The position numbers and the translations under genes are program-made. From positions 2,638,162-2,673,352 of the forward strand of contig CP070788.1 in NCBI GenBank assembly GCA_020346765.1: a stretch of 35,191 nt of DNA. Direction: 5' to 3'. Each line of letters begins with the position of its first letter. Position 1 is the stretch's first letter. Shown one piece after another: positions 23,028 through 31,662 of the stretch. The DNA is from Nitrospiraceae bacterium (GTDB lineage: Bacteria > Nitrospirota > Thermodesulfovibrionia > UBA6902). The notes under the pieces were generated by a model. The model was not told the DNA's origin and made no database searches. It was given only the letters and a program-made list of their open reading frames with translations.

Positions 23028-23258
23028 ATGCTGGTATTGACACGGAAGTCAAATGAGTCTGTAAAGCTTGGAGATGAAATCACTGTGACGATCATCGAAG
23101 TAAAAGGGAATTCTGTCAGGCTGGGGATAGAGGCGCCGGCTGATATCAGGGTGTTCAGGAAAGAGCTCTATGAGAAAATCAGAGAGGAAAACTTCAGGTC
23201 TTCTAATCTCTTTATGGATGAATTTACCAAGATACGTAACGTGCTGAGGCCGAAATGA
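23028..23258 (+). CDS. csrA: Carbon storage regulator CsrA
   Basis: The 76-residue RNA-binding dimer represses translation by binding GGA motifs in mRNA leaders. The RNA-contact residues L4 and R44 (VFRKELYEKI) are present. The long C-terminus contains IREEN with N55; the same IxxEN segment is linked to FliW control in Bacillus subtilis CsrA. GGAGGAG precedes the ATG by 6 bases. The stop overlaps the fliW start (ATGA), and the flagellin gene is the next gene downstream, so flagellin mRNA is the likely main target. Confidence 0.96.
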   Translation: MLVLTRKSNESVKLGDEITVTIIEVKGNSVRLGIEAPADIRVFRKELYEKIREENFRSSNLFMDEFTKIRNVLRPK

Positions 23259-23674
23259 TAAAGGTACAAACGTCCCGCTTCGGAGAGCTGGCCGTAAGGG
23301 AAGACCGGGTGGTGAGTTTCCCCTCGGGCCTGATCGGCCTCCCGCGGTTGCAGCGTTTCTTCCTCATTGACCACAAGGATACACCGCTCAGCTGGCTCCA
23401 GGCCGTTGACGACCCTGACATCGCGTTTATTGTTGCCTCGCCCACGCTTATTGTCCAGGACTATTCATTGAACCTCGACAGCTCAGTAAAAAAGTATATC
23501 GAACTGCAAAATGACGATGATCTTGCTGTCCTTGTCACGGTGAGGGTTGAGGGGGACGATGTTATTGCCAATTTTCAGGGGCCTCTTGCGATAAATTCCC
23601 GAACCATGAAGGGTGTGCAGGTTGTTCTCGACCAGACCCCTGAGTCACCAAGGGAGCCGGGGAGCCCCCTATGA
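23255..23674 (+). CDS. fliW: Flagellar assembly factor FliW
   Basis: The 139-residue protein has the FliW pattern: SRFGELAVREDRVVSFPSGLIGLPRLQRFFLIDH, then LSWLQAVDDPDIAFIVASP and a final GPLAINSRTMKGVQVVLD. FliW binds flagellin or, when flagellin is exported, binds CsrA and relieves its repression. The start overlaps csrA by 4 bases, so both proteins are made together. A GAGTCA/TGACTC inverted repeat (23642-23677) spans the stop codon and may be a weak terminator or mRNA-stabilising hairpin. Confidence 0.96.
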   Translation: MIKVQTSRFGELAVREDRVVSFPSGLIGLPRLQRFFLIDHKDTPLSWLQAVDDPDIAFIVASPTLIVQDYSLNLDSSVKKYIELQNDDDLAVLVTVRVEGDDVIANFQGPLAINSRTMKGVQVVLDQTPESPREPGSPL

Positions 23675-23877
23675 CTCACTGACGAGATGTCTTTTATCAC
23701 AATAAACGTCATAAGCACACCCTATTTTGGTACAGAGCCGTTTCTCCCACTCATCGTCAATTGAGCCTATCCCTTTGAAATATAGTTGTAAAATGCTTCT
23801 TTCCCCCTGAGCTCCCGCCTTTATAGTCATGTAAAAATACCATTCTTACAATTGGAAATAATATTTACAGTAACGTC
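23675..23877. other. Intergenic stretch between fliW and the flagellin promoter
   Basis: About 200 AT-richer bases with no credible gene on either strand. Apart from the inverted repeat that ends in the fliW stop codon, I see no clear terminator, promoter or repeat here. The sigma-28 promoter follows immediately, and a 216-base transcribed flagellin leader lies beyond it. Confidence 0.5.
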
Positions 23878-23904
23878 TAAAGTTTTTATCGTGAATGCCG
23901 ATAG
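23878..23904 (+). promoter_or_regulatory. Sigma-28 (FliA) promoter for flagellin
   Basis: TAAAGTTT, 11 bases, GCCGATAG: the -35 is a full consensus and the -10 matches 7 of 8 positions. It lies 216 bases upstream of the flagellin ATG, so the mRNA has an unusually long leader of about 205 bases. This is the late-class promoter expected for flagellin. Confidence 0.9.
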
Positions 23905-23935
23905 GAAACCTAAAGACAGAGAACGGGAGACGGTC

Positions 23936-24115
23936 AGGAAGGAGGTGATGAAAGCACAGAGAAGCATGATGGCAGCAGCACCGCCCCTGCTTCAGCAAAT
24001 GACCTGATCCATGAGCACTGCAGCAGCGGCGGGCATAAGCCTGCTGAAACGGCACGGATGCCGGACAAAGTCGGGGTCTGAAAGAAACGCAGAATTCCGG
24101 CTTACATCAAGGAGG
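23936..24115 (+). promoter_or_regulatory. Flagellin leader with two GGA-rich sites (putative CsrA targets)
   Basis: The leader contains AGGAAGGAGGTGAT at 23936-23949, of which AAGGAGGTGAT fully complements the usual 16S rRNA 3' end, and CAAGGAGGA at 24108-24116, which includes the flagellin ribosome binding site 5 bases before the ATG. CsrA binds GGA motifs, and in Bacillus two such sites in the flagellin leader allow CsrA to block translation. The upstream site could also start a 19-residue peptide (ATG 23948, stop 24007), but it sits only 2 bases from that ATG. Confidence 0.5.
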
Positions 24116-24120
24116 ACACC

Positions 24121-24966
24121 ATGGGTTTAATAGTAAACACCAACCTTTTTTCTCTGAACGCTCAGAGAAACGTCAAGAACACACAGAACAGCCTCGGAAC
24201 GTCAGTAGAAAGATTATCTTCTGGTCTGAGAATCAACTCAGCCAAGGACGATGCCGCTGGTATGGCACTGTCCATGAAACTGACCGCCCATATCAGGAGC
24301 ATCAATCAGGCAGTCAGAAACGCACAGGACGGCATCAGTGTGGTTCAGACTGCTGAAGGCGGCATGAACGAGATTCACAACATCCTCACCCGGATGAGAG
24401 AACTCGCCATTCAGGCAGCTACGGGAACTTTGTCATCGAGCGACAGAACCTCTCTCCAGACAGAGTTCAATGACCTCAAGACTGAAATAACCAGAATATC
24501 GGATACCACCGAGTTCAACGGCCTGAAGCTCCTGAACGGAACCCTGAGCGGCAGCGGTGTGTCACTGCAGGTAGGCATTAATAACACCGTCAATGACAGG
24601 ATAGCAGTAACAGGCGGGGCCCTCGCGGACATCGATTCCTCTTCCCTTGGACTGAGCGGGACCGTTTCAAGCATTGACACGGCAGGCAACGCCCAGTCGA
24701 TGCTGGCCCTGGTTGACAGCGCTATCAGCACCGTCTCCACGAGGAGAGGCAACCTTGGCGCCGCACAGAACAGGCTTGGCAGCACCATTGCGAACCTTGA
24801 GATCGCCGCTGAGAACCTTTCCGCAGCAAACTCAAGGATCAAGGATGCTGATTTCGCCATCGAAACTGCGAACCTGACGAGGAGTCAGATCATCCTTCAG
24901 GCCGGCGTTGCCGTGCTGTCGCAGGCCAATGTAATGCCGCAGTATGCTCTGCAGCTTCTGGCGTAA
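24121..24966 (+). CDS. fliC: Flagellin
   Basis: The 281-residue filament subunit has conserved D0/D1 ends and a short central region (about 140-190) rich in serine, glycine and threonine, possible O-glycosylation positions. The N-terminus NTNLFSLNAQRNVKNTQNSLGTSVERLSSGLRINSAKDDAAGMA and LTRMRELAIQAATGTLS are classic. The C-terminus (DFAIETANLTRSQIILQAGVAVLSQANVMPQYALQLLA) deviates slightly from the usual NQLPQ ending. It is exported with FliS help. Controlled by the sigma-28 promoter at 23878 and probably by CsrA/FliW. It is the only flagellin gene in the window. Confidence 0.98.
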   Translation: MGLIVNTNLFSLNAQRNVKNTQNSLGTSVERLSSGLRINSAKDDAAGMALSMKLTAHIRSINQAVRNAQDGISVVQTAEGGMNEIHNILTRMRELAIQAATGTLSSSDRTSLQTEFNDLKTEITRISDTTEFNGLKLLNGTLSGSGVSLQVGINNTVNDRIAVTGGALADIDSSSLGLSGTVSSIDTAGNAQSMLALVDSAISTVSTRRGNLGAAQNRLGSTIANLEIAAENLSAANSRIKDADFAIETANLTRSQIILQAGVAVLSQANVMPQYALQLLA

Positions 24967-27471: not shown

Positions 27472-30400
27472 GTGTCTATGAAAAAGATGCGTCTTGAAGA
27501 CTTCCGTGGCGATACGTCAGGGGTCATGGTAAGTGGCGGCAACGGTACACCCGCAGGCTACATGGACGGTGCAGAGAGTTATCTCTCCTCTGTCCTGCAG
27601 AAAAGCCTGGACCTGAGTATCTTCTCCCGTGAGTTGAAGGCAGCGGTCAAAGACTGGCCCAGCCTCTACCATCTCAGCCCGTATCGGACCACGATCATGG
27701 ACTGCCTTGGCCTGCGCAGCGGAACTGCACGGGTGCTTGAACTGGGAGCAGGCTGCGGAGCTGTGACCCGCTGGCTCGGGGAGAAATTTCACCATGTCGT
27801 AGCCGTTGAGGGAAACTACCAGCGGGCGAAGATCGCCAGGCAGCGGTGCCGGGATCTCTCCTCCGTGAATGTCTATGGAGCGAACTTTCTGGACCTGGAC
27901 CTGAAAGGACGATTTGACATAGCGACACTCGTCGGTGTTCTCGAATACAGCCATCTCTACCACCCTCTGTTCAGGAACGACCCTGATGGTGCTGCCTTTT
28001 CGATACTGAACATGGTCTTCGAATCATTGGCGGACCGCGGGATTCTGGTACTTGCACTGGAAAACCGGCTGGGGTTGAAATATTTCAGCGGTGCCAGGGA
28101 AGACCATTCGGGGAAGATATTTGACGGGATACAGGGGTATCCGTCAAAGAAATCAGCGGTGACCTTCAGCGCGGCCCGGCTTGAGGACATGATCATAAAG
28201 GCGGGTTTTTCTTCGGCTTCCTTTTATCTCCCCTTCCCTGACTACAAACTGGCATCGACGATCTTCAGAGGGGACCGGCTTTCCCGCGATTATTTCCTTC
28301 ACAACTGGATTGAAACACCCTTTCCGGACCGGAGTGATGTCCGGAGGACCCTTCTGTTCAATGAGAGCCTCGTTATGCGGGAGGTAGGACGGGCAGGACT
28401 GCTCAGAGACATAGCCAATGCATTTCTCATCGTTGCAACTAAGGGGGAAAAGACAGCAGTTCAGGACGTGCTTTTTTCAGGAGATGAGGACTGGATTGCA
28501 CGCCATTATTCACTGGGGAGGCACACTCCCTTTCACAAGATAGCAACGCTGCGGCAAATCCAGCCTGGAGAACTCATCATTGAAAACGCCTCGCCCCATG
28601 CATGCGCGGAGCCGGAGCATGCCGTAGATTCGTGTTTCACACACCGCTTCACCCGTGAACAGTATTGCCGGGGGGACCAGCTGATCTATCAGGTATTCGA
28701 AATGCTTGCGTCAGGCCGCTTTGAGACAGACTTCATCAATATTGTCAGACAACTCAACTCATATCTTCTTGAACGATATGCAACAGGTGAAAAAGACGCA
28801 GAGGGAATCCCCTTGCTCAAGGGAGATGCGCTGGATGCCCTGTTTTGGAACATCATTATCACGGATGGTACGGGTGAATGGACCTGTATTGACCGGGAGT
28901 GGTCATTTGAGGGCAGTCTCCCGGCGGACATTATCCTGTGGCGCAATCTCTACCACCTGCTGATGAGGTATCACCGCTACATCGAGGACGCTATCACCGA
29001 TCAAATGAAGCATGACTTTATCATGGCATGCCTGCGAGCGATCTACCCCGCATTCAACGAGGTAAGGTACGCACAGGCGCAGCGCGTGGATGACTATTTT
29101 CAGGACTACGCCCATCATGGTATTGCAGCGGACAGGGCCTCACTGCAGGGCAGTTATAAAGGAGGGCTGAAGGTGGAATCAGGAACAGGGGAAAAGAACG
29201 ATGCTCCTGCATACATTTCAGCTGCGGGCAGTCATACGGCCGGACCCTGGAAGCAGGGAAGGGATACCATAAAGGAGCTGGTATCGATCATCATCCCTGT
29301 ATTCAACAAAATGGAGTACACGCAGAATTGCCTTGAAAACATCGCGCTGAACACCTCCTATGATCCCTATGAAGTGATTATCGTTGACAATGGGTCCTCT
29401 GACGGGACAAAAGACTTATTGAGAGGGATTAAGGGAGATGTAACGACCATTACGAATAAGGAGAACCTTGGTTTTGCCATGGCATGCAATCAGGGAGCCA
29501 GAGCTGCCCGGGGAGAGTATCTGGTATTTCTGAATAATGACACGGCCCCCCAGCCGGACTGGCTCGAAAACCTTGTAAAAGCCATCACCGCGAGACCTGA
29601 TGTCGCTGTCGTAGGATGCAAGCTTATCTATCCTGACAAACGGATCCAGCATGCCGGCGTAGTATTCGGACATTGCGACAAGGGCCCCAGTGTCTATCAC
29701 ATATACCGGGGACTCCCCCATGATCACAGGGCAGTGAACCGTGTAAGGGAATTCAACGCCGTAACTGCCGCCTGCATGCTTGTGAAGAGCAGCATCTTTT
29801 TTGAGACAGGCATGTTTGATGAAGGATTTAGGAACGGGTACGAGGACATTGATTTCTGCCTGCGAATACGGCAGCAGGGCATGAAAATCCTCTATACTCC
29901 GGACAGTGTCCTCTATCACCATGAAGAGACAACCGAAGGCAGGCGTTCCCATGGGGAACATAATACGCGCTACTTTTTGCAGAAGTGGAGTAAAAGGATC
30001 GTCTCCGATGACCGGGAGAAGGCGTGCGAGGACGGATTCCGGATAGAATGCCCGTCCGGGACAGAAGTTCAGCTGATACCAATAGAGGTGCAGGAGGTGG
30101 AAAAGACTCCTCCGCACCCGGGAAATGAATGCGGCCTCAAGCACGCGGCAGCGTCCGGCAAGAAAAAGATTGCCATTGTGCGCGGGGCGAACCTGAACAA
30201 GTGGGAAATGCAGAACTATGAGCCGCTTGCAGACAAATATGACCTCATTGCCTATACAACGAAAGGGCATATGTACGATACCGGCACGGTGAAATTGCCG
30301 GTCAGGGAAGTCCCTTCCCGTTCACAGGGTTTGCTGCTGGAAATGGAAGGACTGGAAGAGCATCTCGCGGACATGGACCTGGTTTTTTCCGCTGACATCA

Positions 30401-31662
30401 CGTACCGGTTTTCTGCCCAGGCAGTCATGGCGAAGCAGAAATACGGAACCAGAGTTGTCTGCCTTGAATGGGAAAACATCCCCTTTAATTATGAAGAGCA
30501 TCAGGCCGTAGGCGCAATAAAGGAGACGGTCAGGTACGGGGCCGACCACTTTATAGCCGTTACAGAGCGGGCGAAGGAGGCGCTGATGCTTGAGGGCGTC
30601 CCTTCCGGAAAGATTGATGTTGTTCCCATGGGAGTTGATCTTACTGTCTTTCGTCCTGATGAAAGGTACGTGGAGACAGACAGGGAGAGGTTGAGGATCG
30701 GCAGGAATGACATTGTGATTCTCTGCATAGGCAGGATGGTATGGGAGAAGGGGATTTATGATTACCTTCATGCCGCTGCCACTATTATGAGAGATCCCGC
30801 GCTGAAAGACTGCCCGGTAAAGTTTCTCGTTGTCGGGAAAGGGCAGGAACTGCAGGGGGTTCATGAACGGGCTGCACGGCTCTCCCTGGGAGACACGTTT
30901 GTCTTAAGGGAAGAGTATCCCTATCAGCAAATCTGCAGGCTGCACAATCTCTGCGATATATTTGTTCTACCCAGCATTGCGACGAAGACATGGCAGGAGC
31001 AGTTCGGCATGGTGCTTATCGAGAGTATGGCCTGCGGCAAGCCTGTCATCTCCACGCTGTCAGGGTCAATCCCAGAGGTGGTAGGAGATGCCGGTATTCT
31101 GGTGCAGCCTAATGACCACCTGTCTCTTTACAAGGCGGCAAAACAGCTTATGCTTGACAGGGAACTGAGAGCAGAGCTTGGCAGAAGGGCCCTTGAGAGG
31201 GCCCGGGAGAGGTATGACTCCCGAAAAACGGCTGAGCGCATAGGGCAAATATTTGAAAAAGTTCTGTGCCGGTGCAGCGATAAAGAGGACCCTGACGGTA
31301 TGTATGAAGAAGGGATGGCCACATGGAACAGGGGGCACAGGCTGCGAGGATTTGACACAGTCCGCAAAGCATTTTTCATGGACCCTGACAGGGCAGATGT
31401 TATTGACTCGCTTGTCAGGATGGGGATGGAGTTAAAAAGATATGAAACCGTGGAAAAGGCGTTACGGGAATACCTGTCCTATCACCCGGTAAACTTTGAT
31501 GCACTCATATCTCTGTCAGAAGTGCTTGTCTGTCTCGGAAGAACCAGGGATGCTGAAGAGGAACTCAGGAAGGTTTTCATCTTCAACAAAGAGCACAGGC
31601 GCGCCTGTGAACTGAGAGACAGGCTGAGCAGCATCTCACCTGCGCAGAATACGCCCGTATAA
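27472..31662 (+). CDS. Giant fusion: methyltransferase, kinase-like segment, GT2 and GT4 glycosyltransferases, TPR-like tail
   Basis: The 1396-residue protein has at least five parts. (1) SAM methyltransferase, about 75-250, with motif VLELGAGCG (88-96). (2) A segment at about 300-560 containing DALFWNIII (455-463) and IDREW (473-477), resembling the catalytic and metal loops of aminoglycoside-kinase-like folds. (3) GT2 glycosyltransferase, about 603-830, with SIIIPVFN, IVDNGSSDGT, FLNNDT (686-691) and YEDIDFCLR. (4) GT-B/GT4 glycosyltransferase, about 897-1265, with GRMVWEKG and the E-x7-E motif at E1176/E1184. (5) TPR-like helices, about 1275-1385. No signal peptide or membrane segment is seen, so it is probably cytoplasmic. 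Position between two fliS genes suggests flagellin or surface-glycan modification. The start could be GTG 27472 or ATG 27478. Confidence 0.88.
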   Translation: MSMKKMRLEDFRGDTSGVMVSGGNGTPAGYMDGAESYLSSVLQKSLDLSIFSRELKAAVKDWPSLYHLSPYRTTIMDCLGLRSGTARVLELGAGCGAVTRWLGEKFHHVVAVEGNYQRAKIARQRCRDLSSVNVYGANFLDLDLKGRFDIATLVGVLEYSHLYHPLFRNDPDGAAFSILNMVFESLADRGILVLALENRLGLKYFSGAREDHSGKIFDGIQGYPSKKSAVTFSAARLEDMIIKAGFSSASFYLPFPDYKLASTIFRGDRLSRDYFLHNWIETPFPDRSDVRRTLLFNESLVMREVGRAGLLRDIANAFLIVATKGEKTAVQDVLFSGDEDWIARHYSLGRHTPFHKIATLRQIQPGELIIENASPHACAEPEHAVDSCFTHRFTREQYCRGDQLIYQVFEMLASGRFETDFINIVRQLNSYLLERYATGEKDAEGIPLLKGDALDALFWNIIITDGTGEWTCIDREWSFEGSLPADIILWRNLYHLLMRYHRYIEDAITDQMKHDFIMACLRAIYPAFNEVRYAQAQRVDDYFQDYAHHGIAADRASLQGSYKGGLKVESGTGEKNDAPAYISAAGSHTAGPWKQGRDTIKELVSIIIPVFNKMEYTQNCLENIALNTSYDPYEVIIVDNGSSDGTKDLLRGIKGDVTTITNKENLGFAMACNQGARAARGEYLVFLNNDTAPQPDWLENLVKAITARPDVAVVGCKLIYPDKRIQHAGVVFGHCDKGPSVYHIYRGLPHDHRAVNRVREFNAVTAACMLVKSSIFFETGMFDEGFRNGYEDIDFCLRIRQQGMKILYTPDSVLYHHEETTEGRRSHGEHNTRYFLQKWSKRIVSDDREKACEDGFRIECPSGTEVQLIPIEVQEVEKTPPHPGNECGLKHAAASGKKKIAIVRGANLNKWEMQNYEPLADKYDLIAYTTKGHMYDTGTVKLPVREVPSRSQGLLLEMEGLEEHLADMDLVFSADITYRFSAQAVMAKQKYGTRVVCLEWENIPFNYEEHQAVGAIKETVRYGADHFIAVTERAKEALMLEGVPSGKIDVVPMGVDLTVFRPDERYVETDRERLRIGRNDIVILCIGRMVWEKGIYDYLHAAATIMRDPALKDCPVKFLVVGKGQELQGVHERAARLSLGDTFVLREEYPYQQICRLHNLCDIFVLPSIATKTWQEQFGMVLIESMACGKPVISTLSGSIPEVVGDAGILVQPNDHLSLYKAAKQLMLDRELRAELGRRALERARERYDSRKTAERIGQIFEKVLCRCSDKEDPDGMYEEGMATWNRGHRLRGFDTVRKAFFMDPDRADVIDSLVRMGMELKRYETVEKALREYLSYHPVNFDALISLSEVLVCLGRTRDAEEELRKVFIFNKEHRRACELRDRLSSISPAQNTPV

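Follow-up and report, generated by a model that had tools for sequence, protein, structure and literature searches.

The window analysed here is a stretch of 35,191 nucleotides from the genome of a Nitrospiraceae bacterium, which comprises 2.69 Mb in a single contig and has an estimated completeness of 80%. It contains a flagellar run in the order flgL, csrA, fliW, fliC, flaG, fliD and fliS. Every gene in this run is supported by Pfam except flgL, which was seen merely as flagellin-like and was named from its place and length. Both csrA and fliW were found once in the genome, and the nearest relatives of the encoded FliW come from Nitrospirota metagenome genomes: the first ten among the matches listed share 56-72% identity with it, under the record titles Thermodesulfovibrionia (4), Nitrospirae (3) and Nitrospiraceae (3). 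Downstream of fliS lies an open reading frame of 1396 amino acids (27472-31662) which, reading it by eye, we take to be a fusion of a methyltransferase and a glycosyltransferase, possibly for surface or flagellin glycosylation. The genes at the centre of this analysis, and a hairpin inside the first of them, are as follows.

23028-23258, plus strand: csrA, 76 amino acids (Pfam PF02599, E 1.8e-24), with L4, R44, I51 and N55.
23037-23052, plus strand: CsrA-type hexaloop hairpin TTGAC-ACGGAA-GTCAA at csrA codons 4-9, identified by codon-level conservation.
23255-23674, plus strand: fliW, 139 amino acids (Pfam PF02623, E 3.9e-32; PDB 5dmb FliW, E 5e-17).
24121-24966, plus strand: fliC, flagellin, 281 amino acids (Pfam PF00669, E 9.6e-47, and PF00700, E 2.7e-24).

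A preliminary description of this DNA had csrA and fliW overlapping each other immediately before flagellin. The overlap is real, with 4 nt shared between the csrA end at 23258 and the fliW start at 23255, and an overlap of this length is seen in 44/58 locus rows (duplicates counted). The order of the genes also stood, but their adjacency to flagellin did not, as fliW and fliC are separated by a 446-nt gap with a sigma-28-type promoter in it. Across relatives, the length of this gap varies from 282 to 660 nt. In the window it also holds a 53-codon open reading frame on the minus strand (23669-23830), for which there was no Pfam match.

The same description had singled out L4, R44 and the I51/E54/N55 segment of CsrA, and all of these were confirmed directly in the translation. 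Comparison of 44 distinct aligned CsrA proteins revealed L4 and R44 in every one and N55 in 43, while position 51 is occupied by isoleucine in 36, leucine in 4, valine in 3 and alanine in 1. In Campylobacter CsrA, the V51A and N55A mutations are reported to abolish FliW binding, and R44 to be crucial for RNA binding (PMC7829508). The structure matched by the window's FliW (PDB 5dmb) also contains a CsrA chain, and the window's CsrA matches that chain. Present in the window, then, are the protein parts of a FliW-CsrA-flagellin switch: a FliW family protein, and a CsrA with the RNA-contact residues and, in its extended C-terminus, the FliW-contact residues I/V51 and N55.

Turning to the RNA, a scan of the whole window for hairpins with an ANGGAN hexaloop and a stem of four or more pairs, two or more being G-C, returned just four on the plus strand and two on the minus strand. 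Two of these six are P2, which lies in the flagellin leader discussed below, and the hairpin at the start of csrA, a coincidence beyond what chance would give. When hairpins of this type were counted upstream of each gene in the same loci, they were found for fliC in 17/18 cases, for csrA in 2/44, for flgL in 1/33, and for fliD, flaG and fliS in 0/12, 0/8 and 0/2, respectively. For fliW the count was 32/44, and it was these cases that pointed to the hairpin inside csrA.

This csrA-start hairpin is present in 25/37 distinct csrA starts, where resampling of synonymous codons leads one to expect 0.2. It might owe its presence to shared ancestry or codon bias rather than to CsrA autoregulation, given that the LTRK protein motif is nearly invariant, that the csrA sequences are related, and that synonymous resampling ignores phylogeny. 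As relatedness inflates the figure of 25/37 against 0.2, the within-gene entropy is the better control. Across 44 distinct csrA sequences, normalised synonymous entropy has a mean of 0.41 at codons 4-7 as opposed to 0.84 at 16 other conserved codons of the gene, all of them past codon 9; values equally low are found solely at codon 43 and in the last column, and codons 2 and 3 have values of 0.58 and 0.90. Codon 4 itself is TTG in 33/43 distinct sequences, against a background of 11%. Both observations argue against ancestry or codon bias, which we therefore consider a rather unlikely source of the hairpin. The CsrA-type site that autoregulation calls for near the csrA start is present, and the hairpin at codons 4-9, together with the 4-nt overlap between csrA and fliW, suggests joint repression of csrA and fliW by CsrA. 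In the literature searched, we found no report of such a hairpin inside csrA codons.

Because the gap upstream of fliC holds a sigma-28-type promoter, spelled TAAAGTTT-N11-GCCGAT, fliC probably has its own transcript. The promoter was called using the sigma-28 consensus; the strict pattern occurs upstream of fliC in 12/18 distinct loci and a looser pattern in 14/17, and a sigma-70 scan is uninformative here, the promoter being sigma-28-type. An element TTTACAG, located at 23864-23870 on the 5' side of the promoter, recurs by eye in many relatives and is a candidate upstream promoter element or regulator site. With the transcription start placed from the promoter, the flagellin leader is indeed long, as the preliminary description had it, at about 210 nt rather than about 205 nt. 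The promoter and the parts of this leader are as follows.

23878-23904, plus strand: sigma-28-type promoter TAAAGTTT-N11-GCCGATAG, from the sequence pattern.
23926-24010, plus strand: P0, with outer pairs 23926-23927/24009-24010 and the stem GGTCA 23932-23936/TGACC 24000-24004, from stem covariation and de novo RNAalifold.
23935-23950, plus strand: extended Shine-Dalgarno-like element CAGGAAGGAGGTGATG in the P0 loop, from its duplex with the 16S tail.
23948-24007, plus strand: possible upstream open reading frame of 19 codons, from the sequence.
24029-24044, plus strand: P1, hairpin GCGGGC-ATAA-GCCTGC, from covariation.
24050-24063, plus strand: P2, or BS1, CsrA-type hairpin CGGC-ACGGAT-GCCG, from its ANGGAN loop and covarying stem.
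24069-24102, plus strand: P3, putative spacer hairpin AGTCGG ... CCGGCT between BS1 and the Shine-Dalgarno sequence (SD), from covariation, spacing and RNAalifold.
24106-24116, plus strand: BS2, the fliC SD ATCAAGGAGGA, from the alignment of 17 leaders, with the site proper at 24109-24114.

The leader has CsrA-type sites, one of them over the SD. As RNA, P2 reads CGGC-ACGGAU-GCCG and presents its hexaloop (BS1) at 24054-24059; we take this loop to be that of the classical high-affinity CsrA/RsmE sites. High-affinity apical hexaloops are given as CANGGANG in a Campylobacter study (PMC4894983). The preliminary description had instead listed two GGA-rich sites, at 23936-23949 and at the SD. Both stretches are there in the sequence and the SD is kept as a site, but 23936-23949 has been reassigned (see below) and the better site, at 24050-24063, was missing from that list.

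To assess the conservation of these parts we aligned 17 distinct flagellin leaders at full length, namely that of the window and 16 that adjoin fliW in relatives. The P2 loop is an ANGGAN hexaloop in 17/17 and the fliC SD ATCAAGGAGGA is likewise invariant in 17/17. A hand-drawn structure of 21 pairs in five helices fits these leaders, with 97.2% of cells pairing and 10/21 pairs changing on both sides (in P1, 4/6 pairs are altered on both sides in some relative). Ten such pairs were reached in 0/500 shuffles, and slid controls, which matter too because related sequences can exceed shuffles without any structure, gave at most 4. In 31 distinct rows aligned to a covariance model, 14/21 pairs vary on both sides, in an alignment that leans to the model. 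Moreover, RNAalifold, unaided, recovered the same main helices plus an inner helix in P3. The preliminary description had proposed folding the leader to see whether its GGA motifs lie in hairpin loops. The stretch 23936-23949 does fall almost wholly within the P0 loop, but the window leader folded alone was no better than shuffles (z -0.92), with P1, P2 and P3 in its centroid, so that the case for the structure rests on covariation.

The covariance model of the leader found 29/61 relatives at E < 1e-6 and 35/61 at E up to 0.1, all of the listed matches being full-length. The 30 matches that were fetched (the 29 and one at 4.8e-4) all directly precede a flagellin start, which in one case (L084) was called by reading MGLIVNSN downstream of the match; in 12/30, csrA and fliW are absent from the fetched flank. 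Of 395 genomes sampled across the phylum, 19 had a match to the leader model, and four matches from this sample that lie outside the window's family also sit before flagellins.

In the window, BS1 and BS2 are separated by 55 nt in sequence and by an unpaired path of about 19 nt once P3 folds. By a strict criterion both sites were found in 52/88 leaders (L055 and L101, an identical leader, are both counted in the 88). The sites are 18-36 nt apart with an unfolded linker in 21 of the 52, and 41-95 nt apart in the other 31, where a hairpin intervenes; along the unpaired path, the distance is 15-36 nt in all 52 leaders. The hairpin-bearing linkers, of which 30/31 were analysed (L075, a near-duplicate of L025, being omitted), are more stable than their shuffles, with a mean z of -4.1 and 28/30 below -2. 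An unpaired spacing of 15-30 nt was observed in 30/30, against 20.5/30 with shuffled linkers, a figure that makes the spacing argument only partly independent, since any folded linker shortens the path. Bridging by a CsrA dimer has been reported for sites 10-63 nt apart, with an optimum of 18 nt (PMC3856055), printed as >18 in another source (PMC7652899). In light of the linker stability, the unpaired spacing, this bridging range and the 21-nt plan of Campylobacter flaA, the most fitting reading of P3 is that of a spacer that would bring BS1 to the SD. This geometry also provides a rule for finding candidates: two ANGGAN sites separated by about 20 nt of unpaired path, with a hairpin inserted where the sequence gap is longer.

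The 5' part of the leader is of a different nature. All duplex calculations used an assumed 16S 3' tail; a 17-base pattern ending in the anti-SD had no match in the window's own genome. With this tail, the element at 23935-23950 forms a duplex of -23.2 kcal/mol, against -11.2 kcal/mol for the true SD. Over 68 leaders (a set that omits L082, L127 and L148, too short past the promoter, and 17 of L102-L120), the best non-SD match has a mean of -17.9 kcal/mol, whereas the true SD averages -11.2 and shuffles -11.1. It reaches -14 kcal/mol or lower in 61/68 leaders against 55/408 shuffles, and it beats the leader's own SD in 62/68. The leaders L102-L120 were reached through fliW and come from Magnetobacterium, Magnetocorallium, Nitrospirae bacterium nDJH13bin1, a Bdellovibrionaceae and others. 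Of the 17 set apart here (all but L107, and L102/L119 are one gene counted twice), just 7 reach -14 kcal/mol, one of which (L106) repeats the L079 leader, and the mean is -11.9, so the 5' element is not universal. Elements at -16 kcal/mol or lower were found before fliC in 17/18 cases and before other genes in 2/143.

The position of the element was determined in 54/71 leaders, the others being dropped because they had no recognised sigma-28 element, were short or, in the case of L121, lay above -14. Its core is a median of 37 nt past the -10 element (24-90) and 73-217 nt before the start codon. The distance is held to the promoter and not to the start codon, and the element can therefore be said to keep step with the 5' end.

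Could this 5' element, as the preliminary description implied, be a CsrA site? As the main one, it would give the leader three sites and engage more than one dimer. Its GGA motifs sit in the P0 loop, and GGA lies within the best 16S-matching window in 61/68 leaders. However, GGA belongs to any SD, and the spacing to the promoter rather than to the start codon also speaks against such a role, as do four GGA-less windows that still pair with the 16S tail, in L014 (-18.8 kcal/mol), L026 (-18.7), L083 (-18.7) and L136 (-15.9). The remaining 3/7 GGA-less windows (L128, L129, L134) have no strong 16S-pairing element. Because the former four pair without GGA, 23936-23949 reads more as an extended SD, and it is unlikely to be the main CsrA site.

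An extended SD might instead start a short upstream open reading frame that controls fliC or is translationally coupled to it, and in E. coli iraD CsrA is reported to work via a short upstream open reading frame (PMC5574718). The window does have an ATG frame of 19 codons here, and in three other leaders (L021, L023, L030) ATG frames end, by eye, near the P0 3' arm. Against this, a start codon is found 5-9 nt past the core in only 7/68 leaders (ATG in 5 of them), and the ATG of the window is just 3 nt from its GGAG core, making such coupling or control improbable. A leader peptide is not conserved, 61/68 leaders being without a start codon in that interval.

From these start codon counts, the extended SD appears mostly not to initiate. 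Its most likely role would be to bind 30S subunits and in this way stabilise or load the abundant flagellin message, a proposal that we hold at about even odds. By analogy it may act like a STAB-SD, but we have not filed it as one, since RNase J was not found in the window's family (0/25 genomes over the TIGR00649 cut-off); RNase J as a partner of the element was thus rejected there, while 7/16 other genomes searched, including those of the class relatives G048, G051 and G052, have it over the cut-off. No earlier description of a 5'-proximal extended SD before flagellin was found in the literature searched. Flagellin and STAB-SD do occur together in the description of a Bacillus expression system, whose construct combines the hag promoter with the cry3A STAB-SD as two separate elements.

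How widely are these leader features shared? In the window's family (37 genomes), fliW was found in 30, csrA in 30/30 of these and the leader in 28/30; the two exceptions (G001, G022) have fliW but solely FlgL-like flagellin matches. In the 7 family genomes that lack fliW, csrA, flagellin and leader were all not found. A genome from another family (G044, 82% complete) has leader and flagellin (L085), and csrA and fliW were not found in it, which may reflect a gap in the assembly. The covariance model gave no match in G048, G051 and G055, distant Nitrospirota whose leaders (L092-L094) were found by direct reading of the regions upstream of flagellin. Their hairpins read GCGC-AUGGAA-GCGC or AGGC-ACGGAA-GCCU, and two of the three have the SD itself in a hexaloop hairpin 18 nt downstream.

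We then took 59 further flagellin leaders, which had been fetched regardless of structure except for L088-L091 (from model matches), and counted ANGGAN hexaloops in their final 220 nt. The set includes several leaders per genome, one gene twice (L102/L119) and two leaders that repeat others (L106 that of L079, L101 that of L055). With hairpins at the SD counted too, hexaloops were present in 27/59; shuffles would give 0.5, and the reverse strand gave 1. The 32 without the hairpin are 17 of L102-L120 (16 without the repeat L106), 6 Nitrospirota leaders (L090, L091, L095-L098), some of which have shorter or other GGA loops, and 9 from Desulfobacterota. The latter phylum was chosen as that of the L055 genome, a Desulfobulbaceae record, and was sampled by one leader each from the best 30 of 39 flagellin-bearing genomes, 59 genomes having been searched. 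There, a hexaloop upstream of the SD was found in 19/30 genomes, comprising 17/24 with fliW and 2/6 lacking it, a weak association. With L107 set aside for its shorter AGGAU loop, none of the 17 leaders of L102-L120 had the hexaloop hairpin, which is therefore not general among FliW bearers.

Some further observations concern the leaders that differ from the window's. Magnetocorallium, Magnetobacterium and nDJH13bin1 have several flagellins per FliW-bearing genome (L102, L103, L105, L109-L111, L115, L116, L119), and these leaders have no strict hexaloop and often miss the 5' element. Several of them have SDs of the form TACATGGAGGTG, which may form weaker hairpins. In L095 and L096, from family f13 of the same class, P0 appears by eye to be rewritten around the same AAAGGAGGTGA element, as GGGTG/CACCC versus GAGTG/CACTC, and an AGGAG loop hairpin can also be seen.

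That the leader is a ligand-sensing riboswitch or a protein-independent RNA switch with a coincidental GGA hairpin is very improbable: P0 and P1 carry conserved non-GGA positions and an internal loop, but the window has no Rfam match over the gathering score, 16 loci searched at E up to 1 gave one chance snoRNA match far below that score, distant lineages share the CsrA-type parts while the intervening hairpin comes and goes, and the leader co-occurs with csrA and fliW in the window's family.

Taken together, the protein parts, the FliW-contact residues, the covarying leader hairpin and the GGA over the SD support the FliW-CsrA-flagellin switch proposed in the preliminary description, and we consider it very probable that the locus is a homeostasis switch of this type, with CsrA binding and an effect of FliW predicted. 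In such a switch, fliC would be transcribed from the sigma-28-type promoter, giving it a leader of about 210 nt. A free CsrA dimer would place one face on the P2 hexaloop and the other on the SD, with the folding of P3 shortening the gap from 55 nt to about 19 nt, close to the reported optimum for bridging by CsrA, and the bound dimer would keep the ribosome off the fliC SD. If events follow those in Bacillus and Campylobacter, flagellin export would free FliW, which would take CsrA at its I51/N55 helix, and translation would resume. CsrA would probably also bind the hairpin at csrA codons 4-9, and csrA and the overlapping fliW would be autoregulated together.

A more tentative extension, which we rate as less likely than not, brings in the 5' end of the message: 30S subunits docking at the 5' SD might keep the flagellin mRNA stable and loaded while CsrA, clamped on the P2 hexaloop and the true SD, blocks translation until FliW acts, with CsrA limiting csrA-fliW through the hairpin in csrA codons 4-9. 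If this were true, flagellin mRNA would be a stored, poised message for many flagellins of Nitrospirota and Desulfobacterota (at least two phyla), with a non-initiating extended SD about 30 nt from the 5' end of a three-part leader. Message stability and the FliW:CsrA balance could find an explanation in two features, the extended SD at the 5' end and the hairpin in the csrA codons. The leader offers exact candidate sites for mutation, and it adds the RNA counterpart of the FliW-CsrA switch in phyla for which the literature seen had listed mainly the proteins.

The switch is of a known kind, because its site plan equals that of the Campylobacter jejuni flaA leader, which is reported to have a pair of ANGGA hexaloops, with the ribosome site covered by the second, and to be controlled by a CsrA that FliW antagonises (PMC4894983). 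The flaA sites are 21 nt apart, a spacing shown experimentally, and its leader is 45 nt long (PMC4894983), whereas here the spacing is 18-36 nt or bridged by a hairpin, and the leader of about 210 nt has P0, P1 and the P3 spacer hairpin in addition. FliW control having been demonstrated in Campylobacter (PMC4894983, PMC7829508), the Gram-negative setting, presented earlier as a point of interest, loses that standing. The Hag-FliW-CsrA system of Bacillus subtilis is similar in its FliW, in a CsrA with a C-terminal extension, and in the two sites of its flagellin leader, of which one is on the SD (PMC6529632, PMC7652899), as well as in N55 of CsrA (PMC7829508). It differs in that fliW precedes csrA (PMC6529632, PMC7652899), whereas in the window csrA comes first and bears a CsrA-type hairpin of its own. 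In E. coli, too, CsrA is reported to repress translation of its own message, through four leader sites, one of them on the SD (PMC7652899), as opposed to the hairpin within the coding sequence seen here. The nearest parallel to the 5' element is the STAB-SD of Bacillus thuringiensis cry3A, an SD-like sequence close to the 5' end, capable of pairing with 16S rRNA and of binding 30S subunits without directing initiation; its known effect is against RNase J1 (PMC4113751). The element described here, by contrast, lies in a hairpin loop, on a flagellin message and in Gram-negative phyla, with RNase J not found in the 25 family genomes. A survey from 2015 lists Nitrospira among the groups that may use FliW (PMC4682653). 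In this comparison, the type of switch is known, and the group had already been named as likely to use it, while what appears to be new is the leader architecture together with the two additions, the 5' extended SD and the hairpin in the csrA codons.
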